From Sphingorhabdus sp. (GTDB lineage Bacteria; Pseudomonadota; Alphaproteobacteria; Sphingomonadales; Sphingomonadaceae), in NCBI RefSeq assembly GCF_029865925.1, contig NZ_JARXAI010000004.1, positions 1 through 35,173 on the forward strand: 35,173 nucleotides of DNA, in the 5' to 3' direction. The notes beneath the pieces are model-generated. The model ran no database searches and had not been told where the DNA came from. It saw only the letters and a list, made by a program, of their open reading frames with translations. Every line of letters starts with the position of its first letter. The stretch's first letter is position 1. The translations under genes and the position numbers were made by a program. Below, one piece after another: positions 6,577-22,634 of this stretch.

Positions 6577-7494
6577 ATGTCCGAACAAGCTATCTCCATA
6601 AAGAACCTCTCCAAAAAATATGCGGGGGGGAAACAGGCGCTCGACGATGTCAGTTTTGACGTTGCGCAAGGATCGATCTTTGGGTTGCTTGGACCCAATG
6701 GCGCAGGCAAATCTACACTGATTAACATCTTGGCCGGGTTGGTCATGAAAACATCCGGCAGCGCGTCCATTTGGGGTTTCGATATTGACGCCCATCCGCG
6801 CAATGCAAAGGCATCGATTGGCATTGTGCCGCAGGAAATCATGTTCGACCCCTTTTTCACGCCCAAGGAAGCGTTGGAGCTGCAAGCTGGCTTATATGGC
6901 GTGCCTAAGTCGAAGCGGCGGACGATGGAGCTGTTGAAGGCCGTCCGGCTTGAAGATAAGGCCGACGCATATGCCCGCACCCTGTCTGGCGGCATGAAAC
7001 GCCGTTTGTTGGTGGCAAAGGCCATGGTGCATGCGCCGCCAGTGATCGTGCTGGATGAACCTACCGCTGGCGTCGACATCGAACTGCGCCAGCAATTGTG
7101 GGACTATGTGCAGGAATTGAACCGTCAAGGTGTCACCGTTGTCTTGACCACGCACTATCTCGAAGAGGCGGAGCAATTATGTGACCGTATTGCGATCATC
7201 AACCATGGGCAGCTGATCGCCAATAAGCCAACACGCGAATTGGTCGGTATGGCCCGCGAAAAGGCAGTGGTGCTGACGCTAGATCGCGATGTGACCAGCG
7301 CGCCAACGCATGAAACCTTTGAAAAGGCGGAGCTGGTCGGCGACCGGACCATTGCAATTACATATAACAAAGACCGGATGAATGCAGGCGAAGTCCTGTC
7401 GGTGATACAAGGCCTCGGGCTTGGCATTATCGATGTCACCACAAAAGAAGCGGATTTGGAAGACGTCTTCCTTCGTTTGACGAGCACTGCATAA
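6577..7494 (+). CDS. ABC transporter ATP-binding protein (YadG-like, ABC-2 type)
   Basis: ATPase subunit of an ABC-2 type exporter; the substrate is unknown. Seen: 305 residues with Walker A GPNGAGKST (39-47), Q-loop VPQE (84-87), signature LSGGM (136-140), Walker B VIVLDEP (156-162), D-loop GVD and H-loop His193 in TTHYLEEAE. The stretch from the signature through the H-loop is very close to E. coli YadG. The C-terminal 70 residues form the variable accessory domain. AGGAGG abuts the ATG at 6577 directly, an unusually short spacing; in-frame GTG (6538) and TTG (6532) lie upstream. No permease (YadH-like) gene lies nearby. The stop touches the nadB start with no spacer. Confidence 0.9.
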   Translation: MSEQAISIKNLSKKYAGGKQALDDVSFDVAQGSIFGLLGPNGAGKSTLINILAGLVMKTSGSASIWGFDIDAHPRNAKASIGIVPQEIMFDPFFTPKEALELQAGLYGVPKSKRRTMELLKAVRLEDKADAYARTLSGGMKRRLLVAKAMVHAPPVIVLDEPTAGVDIELRQQLWDYVQELNRQGVTVVLTTHYLEEAEQLCDRIAIINHGQLIANKPTRELVGMAREKAVVLTLDRDVTSAPTHETFEKAELVGDRTIAITYNKDRMNAGEVLSVIQGLGLGIIDVTTKEADLEDVFLRLTSTA

Positions 7495-11585: not shown

Positions 11586-11625
11586 GACCTATCTAGCACC
11601 AGCCTGACGCGACCGACAACAGTCT

Positions 11626-20609: not shown

Positions 20610-21242
20610 TTAAAGCCCTGCTTCTACAGCAATTCTGACGGCATCAGCGGCGTTTGAAGTCGCAAGCTTCTTAAACATAAGCATACGGTGCATCTGAACT
20701 GTTTTTTCACTTAGCGATAGACGATACGCAATTTGTTTCGTGCGGAATCCGCGGGCCATTTGCTGCAATATCTCGCGTTGACGTGGGGATAGGCGGTCCA
20801 CAATTTGTGCAGCCTGTTGTTGCCGCACCAGGGCGATACTTTCTTCCTCGGGCAAAACCTCAATCTGCGAGCCTACGAAAAACTGCAGATTGCCCAGATC
20901 GTCGAACAAGGGCGCGATCATCACAGCGTTGCGAAATGGTGACCCGTCTTTCCGATAGTTGATAAGCTCGGCCAAAGCAGGACGCTGGCCATATACGGAG
21001 GAACGCAGTTTTTCGGTCTGGCCATTTTCGGTGTCCGGTCCCCGCAAGAAACGGCAATTCCGACCAACAACTTCGGCTTCAGAATATCCGGTCAGTGTGC
21101 AAAACGCGGCGTTGACTGAGATAATCGGATTGTCAGATTTAGTCGGGTCGCTGACGACCGTTGAAATCGGACTAAACTTAATCGCATCCAGAACCGGATG
21201 CCGGCTGGCTGAAACGGGGGAGGAGGGAGTGTCTAATTTCAC
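20610..21242 (-). CDS. LOV-HTH blue-light-responsive transcription factor (EL222-like)
   Basis: Flavin-binding photoreceptor fused to a LuxR-type DNA-binding domain. Seen: 210 residues. The LOV domain (about 18-130) has SPISTVVSDP, the LTGYSEAEVVGRNCRFL signature with adduct-forming Cys63, NYRKDGSPFRNAV and FVGSQIEV with the switch Gln126. The HTH part (about 150-205) has LSPRQREILQQMARG and LSLSEKTVQMHR. This order and many segments match EL222 of Erythrobacter litoralis (222 residues), which dimerises and binds DNA in blue light. The start is GTG at 21242; an in-frame stop lies two codons upstream and no good Shine-Dalgarno is visible. It follows murA by 75 nt on the same strand. Targets are unknown. 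Confidence 0.93.
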   Translation of the reverse strand: MKLDTPSSPVSASRHPVLDAIKFSPISTVVSDPTKSDNPIISVNAAFCTLTGYSEAEVVGRNCRFLRGPDTENGQTEKLRSSVYGQRPALAELINYRKDGSPFRNAVMIAPLFDDLGNLQFFVGSQIEVLPEEESIALVRQQQAAQIVDRLSPRQREILQQMARGFRTKQIAYRLSLSEKTVQMHRMLMFKKLATSNAADAVRIAVEAGL

Positions 21243-21317
21243 TCGTCAGAGGATGCAGCAAAAATGTCCTTCTGGCAACCGTTGCTTCGTTACCAGGTCA
21301 CAATGTAACCCAGTGTT

Positions 21318-22598
21318 TCATTCTGTGCCGACGCGTTCGATATCCGCGCCCACCAGCTGAAGCTTTTCTTCAAGGCGTTCGTAACCGCGATCGAGATGAT
21401 AAAGGCGGCTAACATGGGTTTCGCCCTCTGCTACCAAGCCCGCAATAACTAGGCTCATCGACGCGCGAAGGTCGGTTGCCATCACTGGTGCGCCCGTAAG
21501 TTTCTTAACGCCATGGACGATAGCCGTGCGCCCCTTAGTTTCGATATGCGCGCCCATCCGATTCAATTCGGGGACATGCATATAGCGGTTTTCAAATATG
21601 GTCTCCGTCAGCACGCTGGCGCCATCTACCATGCAGAGCATCGCCATGAACTGCGCCTGCATATCGGTTGCAAAACCGGGATAGGGCGCAGTTGAAATCG
21701 TGAGCGGCTTCAATTTGCCGTCCGACTTTACGCGTATGCCAGTCCCTGTATCTTCCACGGTAACACCCGCCTGACGCAAGGCATCAAGCGTCGCGTCCAT
21801 CTCACTGGCCTTTGCACCAACGAGCTCAACATCTCCGCCGGTCATGGCAGCAGCACAGGCGTAGCTGCCTGCTTCGATCCGGTCGCTCATCACGCGGTAG
21901 GTCGCGCCATGCAAGCGGTCCTTACCCTGAATGATGAGATCGGATGTGCCAATACCTTCAATCTGCGCACCCATGGCAACAAGCATATTGCATAGGTCAA
22001 CAATTTCAGGCTCGCGCGCCGCATTGTGTAAAACGCATGTGCCCTTTGCAAGGCTCGCAGCCATCAACGCATTTTCGGTTGCGCCCACAGATACGACGGG
22101 GAAGGTGTATGTACCGCCCGGAATGCCCTTTTTCGCGATTGCTTTCACATAGCCTGCGGCTACTTCAATCTCGACGCCAAAGGCCTCTAGCGCCTTCAGG
22201 TGGAGGTCGATCGGCCGGTTGCCAATCGCGCATCCGCCGGGCAGCGAAACTGTCGCTTCACCTGCCCGCGCCAGCATTGGTCCAAGCACCAAGATTGATG
22301 CGCGCATTTTGCGGACGAGGTCATAAGGCGCGACGTTGCTGGTAATCCGCGTCGCTTCAAGGGTCATGACGCGGCCAAAATCTTCGGGGCGCGATCCTGC
22401 CACAGTGGTCGATATGCCGAACTGGTTCATCAGATGCTGGAAGCCGTCAATGTCGGCCAGACGCGGCAAATTGCGCAGCGTCAACGGTTCATCGGTCAGC
22501 AGCGCGCACGGGATCAGCGTCAATGCGCTGTTCTTTGCACCGGAAATAGGAATTTTGCCTTTAAGTGCGTTGCCGCCACGTACTATTATTTTGTCCAT
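21318..22598 (-). CDS. murA: UDP-N-acetylglucosamine 1-carboxyvinyltransferase
   Basis: First committed step of peptidoglycan synthesis: transfers enolpyruvate from PEP to UDP-GlcNAc in the cytoplasm. Seen: 426 residues, normal length. It starts [23 protein letters not shown] in two conserved blocks and has [12 protein letters not shown]. The active-site loop [15 protein letters not shown] has Cys123, the fosfomycin target position, so the usual sensitive form is present. The central [28 protein letters not shown] and C-terminal [16 protein letters not shown] are all typical. It lies 36 nt downstream of the DsbA-like isomerase gene and 75 nt upstream of the LOV-HTH gene in a same-direction array. 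Confidence 0.98.
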
Positions 22599-22634
22599 CG
22601 CAGAGTATTTAGCGGGAATTGGTTGCGGCGCAAC

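Follow-up and report, generated by a model that had tools for sequence, protein, structure and literature searches.

EL222 of Erythrobacter litoralis, a much-used optogenetic tool, consists of a LOV domain followed by a LuxR-type HTH domain. Regulators of this type carry an adduct cysteine together with the conserved Asn, Asn and Gln residues of the flavin pocket. Flavin-adduct formation, HTH release and dimerisation have been described for EL222 (PMC4844311 and PMC9614035), and PMC10521638 gives both its consensus site RGNCYWWRGNCY and the C120 operator. Here we analyze an EL222-like gene in a window of 35,173 nt, the whole of contig 66 in a 2.10-Mb draft genome of 103 contigs, whose named near relatives are for the most part species of Sphingorhabdus or MAGs assigned to Sphingomonadales.

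An EL222-like LOV-HTH protein

The features of the locus are collected in Table 1. The encoded protein has an N-terminal LOV domain (PAS_9, residues 34-126, 56.4 bits against a Pfam cut-off of 27) and a C-terminal LuxR/GerE HTH domain (64.6 bits against a cut-off of 23.5), and nothing else. Its adduct cysteine, Cys63, lies within GRNCRFL and Gln126 within FVGSQIEV, in a numbering that agrees with invariant alignment columns. EL222 was the best match in the PDB (8a5r, E 4e-65; 3p7n, E 7.9e-65; each covering residues 15-210), at 53-54% identity. An AlphaFold model, for which the input was 35 aligned sequences from the window and the fetched loci, reached a pLDDT of 86.9 and a pTM of 0.77, with low confidence at residues 1-13. 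Foldseek ranked EL222 first (8a5r, TMq 0.87 over 193 columns at 54% identity; 3p7n, TMq 0.85), and the other 48 matches among those listed scored a TMq of 0.55 or less. In this model the HTH is predicted to pack on the LOV domain as in the solved EL222 structure, and the two proteins share domain order, similar length, photocycle residues and predicted fold. Pfam, the PDB match and the model all bear out a sequence-only reading of the window, which had named Cys63 in GRNCRFL, Gln126 and a LuxR-type HTH in the EL222 order; its view of the product as an EL222-like, light-activated DNA binder is likewise supported by sequence, architecture and model.

Table 1. Coordinates of the LOV-HTH gene, its parts and its upstream neighborhood in the window
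Feature	Position	Strand	Remarks
LOV-HTH gene, EL222-like	20610..21242	(-)	210 aa, GTG start, predicted leaderless
LuxR/GerE HTH, recognition helix Gln183/Met187/Phe190	20628..20795	(-)	residues 150-205
LOV core, Cys63 + Gln126	20850..21164	(-)	about residues 27-131
murA-LOV intergenic region, 75 nt	21243..21317	(-)	terminator-like site not found on (-) strand
-10-like hexamer CATCCT	21250..21255	(-)	17 nt after TTGCCA, 7 nt before GTG
Conserved -35-like hexamer TTGCCA	21273..21278	(-)	from motif match 21273-21287
murA	21318..22598	(-)	TIGR01072 above its cut-off
Isomerase-murA gap, TTGC...GCTAAATAC element, predicted murA promoter	22599..22634	(-)	36 nt, element conserved

The residues Asn62, Cys63, Asn95, Asn105 and Gln126 were present in all 19 rows of the murA-type clade in a thinned set (18 murA-linked proteins and L092, after prior removal of 19 near-duplicates), and also in 50 of the 51 other rows, the remaining row being a gap. 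Judged by dN/dS, the gene is under purifying selection: the ratio was 0.04-0.09 against five of seven relatives, those with a dS of at least 0.58, and 0.14 and 0.40 against two very close relatives, at a dS of 0.07 and 0.05.

Position behind murA

The sequence-only reading had placed the gene 75 nt behind murA, which is exact (murA stop at 21318, LOV start at 21242), and its names for the preceding genes, clpS, SDR, isomerase and murA, were correct, the isomerase being an isomerase-like DSBA-domain protein. The order murA, LOV-HTH, then convergent RHH and phaB was found in 28/28 close loci (our own L001, L004-L029 and L038), and hemH came next in line in all 27 that were long enough to reach it. 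Among 45 genomes of the genus, 40 had a LOV-HTH match, located behind murA in 35, beside amiC-mrcA in four (L090-L093) and elsewhere in one (L083). Four of the five genomes with no match carried murA with RHH downstream and no LOV match between them; in the fifth, G032, murA was also not found.

Adjacency to murA was thus seen in 35/45 genus genomes versus 0/39 LOV-HTH loci outside the genus, the latter comprising 31 family matches from 29 genomes and eight other-genus loci (L030-L037), with L039, a 25% match, excluded; none of the 39 had a murA match anywhere in its fetched flanks, which reached up to 6 kb per side, some less, and some species may occur in both sets. In the family sample as a whole, 31 of 139 genomes had a LOV-HTH match at 1e-40. 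The position had been called new, and the murA-linked locus does set the murA type apart from EL222; within the genus, behind murA is the usual place. Judging by titles and the starts of abstracts, with incomplete coverage, we found no description of a murA-LOV link in the open literature.

The genes further upstream behaved differently. The spacing between clpS and SDR was about 1.8 kb in eight loci (L008-L012, L017, L019 and L027), that between isomerase and murA about 440 nt in L024, L025 and L027, and in L023 clpS stood directly before murA, with no match for SDR or isomerase (L029 was left out of this absence count because its stretch reads N). The clpS-SDR-isomerase stretch is not conserved as a unit and is broken in several relatives.

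Promoter-like elements before the LOV gene and before murA

The clearest block kept in the murA-LOV gap, by eye, was TTGC[CTA]A, 17 nt and CA/TA in the 28/28 loci compared. As a pattern, TTGC[ACT]A-N17-[CT]A occurred in 31/35 distinct murA-LOV stretches, compared with a mean of 0.33 and a maximum of 3 in 300 composition shuffles; a loosened pattern, TTG[CA][ACT]A, occurred in 34/35 (shuffle mean 0.73, maximum 5). Both patterns postdate viewing of the alignment, the loosened one having been drawn up after L087-L089 were seen, and the shuffles preserve base content only, while the stretches share descent. The exception is L086, where murA and the LOV gene touch or overlap at about 6600-6625, leaving neither gap nor element, unlike the other 34 distinct stretches. 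The -10 part of the element is poor.

The spacing between element and GTG is 7 or 8 nt in 22 of these stretches, so the gene's first base, or one beside it, is where the transcript would be expected to start; the other 12 of the 34 have no GTG at that spacing and carry ATG codons further down, some with a Shine-Dalgarno-like sequence. The GTG of the LOV gene is the sole ATG, GTG or TTG within the first 60 codons. The best anti-Shine-Dalgarno duplex before it has +1.3 kcal, and we therefore assign it no Shine-Dalgarno sequence. Such starts are common in the window (murA, clpS, phaC and hflK, in a survey of 19 start points of which two were not start codons), so this absence alone proves little.

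Before murA, the arrangement TTGC, 12-20 nt, G[CT]TAAA, 6-9 nt, ATG was kept in 30/30 distinct upstreams, and this element resembles the Caulobacter housekeeping promoter. It lies in the 36-nt gap after the isomerase gene, and murA may be leaderless too. A generic promoter scan of the window listed neither the LOV element nor the murA element. From the conservation of the two elements, murA and the LOV gene likely have separate promoters, and a sensor driven purely by a housekeeping promoter is unlikely. No terminator-like site was found between murA and the LOV gene.

As a marker of a regulon, the motif AAGSAANNGTTGCCA of the LOV promoter was rejected: with at most one mismatch allowed, 10 of 12 genomes had no more matches than their reversed control, the exceptions being G000, our own genome (11 versus 7), and G002 (7 versus 6). 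Several one-mismatch AAGSAANNGTTGCCA strings turn up in more than one genome, and in L015 one of these falls within the acyl-CoA dehydrogenase gene.

Recognition helix and relation to EL222

Residues 183, 187 and 190, whose equivalents in NarL contact bases, are Lys, Gly and Met in EL222 and Gln, Met and Phe in the murA type. Gln183, Met187 and Phe190 were present in 19/19 thinned clade rows; among the 51 other rows, 50 had Lys183 (one gap) and none had Met187. One of the 33 distinct clade proteins (L029) has Val in place of Met187, and Arg67 of the murA type corresponds to Ala79 of EL222. Because these recognition-helix residues are changed, the targets of the murA type probably differ from those of EL222.

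Searches for an operator found none. For every one of the 28 loci, 61 or more of 200 shuffles equalled the best match to the EL222 consensus in the murA-LOV gap, and the window holds two exact RGNCYWWRGNCY sites versus 1.08 expected. One of these two, AGTCTTTAGTCC at 11621, looked promising because a Peptidase_M20 gene lies downstream of it, but was discarded, its consensus being kept in only 2/29 relatives (L250 and L256).

In the tree, built after the same removal of near-duplicates, EL222 groups with L162 and L163 and the murA clade stands apart, several deep supports being weak; trees were built without L039 and L084, and L037, which gave a 10-residue piece in one analysis and an odd long branch in another, was dropped. 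On this topology the murA clade is a paralogue of EL222 and not its orthologue in the strict sense. Nearest to it in both trees are the LOV-HTH proteins beside amiC-mrcA, which differ from the murA type in lying at another locus, also with peptidoglycan genes. L092 joins the clade with a support of 0.975 and already has Gln183 and Met187, as in the murA type; L090, L091 and L093 join with a support of 0.0. At L092 (6007-6528) the LOV-HTH match begins at residue 35, which could reflect a pseudogene, an error of assembly or an overlooked start.

We also considered amiC as a partner and rejected it. At 1e-60, the only cut-off tried, 11/45 genomes had no amiC match (G000, G008, G016, G021, G026, G029, G032, G038, G039, G040 and G044), several of them near complete; that our own genome is among them speaks against an amiC target here.

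A second LOV-HTH type beside rhodopsin

A second type, here called type B, occurs alongside the murA type in 12/45 genus genomes (L071-L082, in G006, G010-G014, G017, G019, G024, G027, G028 and G030). It has the same architecture as the murA type, with 47-50% identity over aligned positions, but differs in its EL222-like Lys183 and its 57-63% identity to EL222. In 12/12 genomes it and a rhodopsin gene are divergently oriented, with blh behind in all eight loci whose gene order was compared.

Upstreams could be read at 21 of 28 rhodopsin loci, the other seven having no readable start or upstream. In 20 of these 21 (11 with and nine without type B), the rhodopsin -35 is immediately preceded by the box GGTATAAAGGAT, and 17-21 of the 21 bases of a wider core are kept; the exception is the second rhodopsin copy of our own genome, with 11/21 bases and no box. 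In 12/12 searched genomes a match with 0-1 mismatch occurred only at the rhodopsin promoter, the remaining matches having three mismatches and a number within what the reversed control allows. The box resembled C120 more closely than shuffled sequences did in 8/11 promoters with type B and in 0/10 without. This conserved box beside a divergent type B suggests that rhodopsin transcription may be under LOV control.

Light-related genes elsewhere

The earlier reading saw nothing else light-related in the window, which fits; elsewhere the genome carries a photolyase (Pfam family) and the beginnings of two rhodopsin genes, each at a contig end (L098, 1-760, and L099; contigs 29 and 30), and no BLUF gene was found in it. 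One of these starts has no type B beside it, and a glutamine synthetase gene there is preceded by a frame of 99 codons, as though a segment had been lost; by eye, this frame looks like the final part of the gene that usually comes next.

Outside the genus, rhodopsin-blh, folE, photolyase or carotenoid-type genes lay within the fetched flank of 12/31 family loci (L158-L188) and 7/8 other-genus loci (L030-L037), as raw counts with no chance control. Pfam confirmed the representatives of rhodopsin, blh, folE, ispH-crtE and crtB, placed that of crtI in the amine oxidase family only, and gave no match for that of crtZ. In a partial scan, 16 loci with no such genes had mixed neighbors (GGDEF-EAL, decarboxylase, aminotransferase, CFA synthase and others).

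Discussion

Taken together, the gene quite probably encodes an EL222-type, one-component transcription factor that responds to blue light, is made mainly from its own promoter on a leaderless GTG message and reads a DNA site different from that of EL222. By analogy with EL222, the flavin-bound LOV domain would hold the HTH in the dark; blue light would form the Cys63-flavin adduct and reorient Gln126, the HTH would be freed, and the protein would dimerise and bind DNA. As conservation suggests, transcription would come mainly from the promoter in the 75-nt gap, starting at the GTG, with at most some read-through from murA. The changed recognition helix points to a different DNA site, and the murA type would therefore be a paralogue that has diverged and that probably controls a regulon of its own.

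The sequence-only reading had the LOV gene ending a clpS-SDR-isomerase-murA array, with a housekeeping promoter setting its level. The common strand, the short gap lacking a terminator-like site, the murA-LOV order in 35/45 genomes and the touching or overlapping genes of L086 all agree with such an operon, but the promoter-like elements before the LOV gene (34/35 stretches) and before murA (30/30) predict internal promoters, and the set is not kept together, as the widened clpS-SDR spacing in eight loci and the direct clpS-murA contact in L023 show. We consider this operon reading rather unlikely. That the protein kept its LOV fold and lost light sensing, acting as a redox or constitutive regulator, is highly improbable given the flavin-pocket set retained in 19/19 clade rows; Leu in place of Arg61 in L014 is a motif change in one of the 33 distinct proteins.

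It is unlikely, too, that the murA type took over the rhodopsin operon where type B is missing, as in our own genome. The box persists in the promoters without type B (17-20/21 bases in eight other genomes and 19/21 in one G000 copy), and 26/27 rhodopsin genomes carry a murA-type gene, the exception being G032, which also lacks a murA match (Fisher p 0.0004, uncorrected for kinship). However, nine genomes have a murA-type gene and no rhodopsin match, the murA-type recognition helix is unlike that of type B and EL222, and the box, confined to rhodopsin at 0-1 mismatch in the 12 genomes, is not at the LOV promoter. The C120 likeness also did not beat shuffles in promoters without type B, the second G000 copy has no box, and the upstreams at a quarter of the rhodopsin loci (7/28) are unreadable.

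In the genus, all members of the murA-type clade neighbor peptidoglycan genes: they follow murA in 35 genomes and stand next to amiC-mrcA in L092, and the probable nearest relatives, whose placement has weak support, neighbor such genes in three more genomes. Joined to the changed DNA-reading helix, this would make the clade a light regulator whose role has shifted to the cell envelope, with blue light adjusting wall synthesis, a reading we regard as quite unlikely. The two paralogues of the genus, one divergent from rhodopsin and one usually linked to murA, with a changed recognition helix, form a natural pair for the divergence of DNA specificity in LOV-HTH proteins, and the pair yields a testable prediction, that rhodopsin transcription would be under LOV control.
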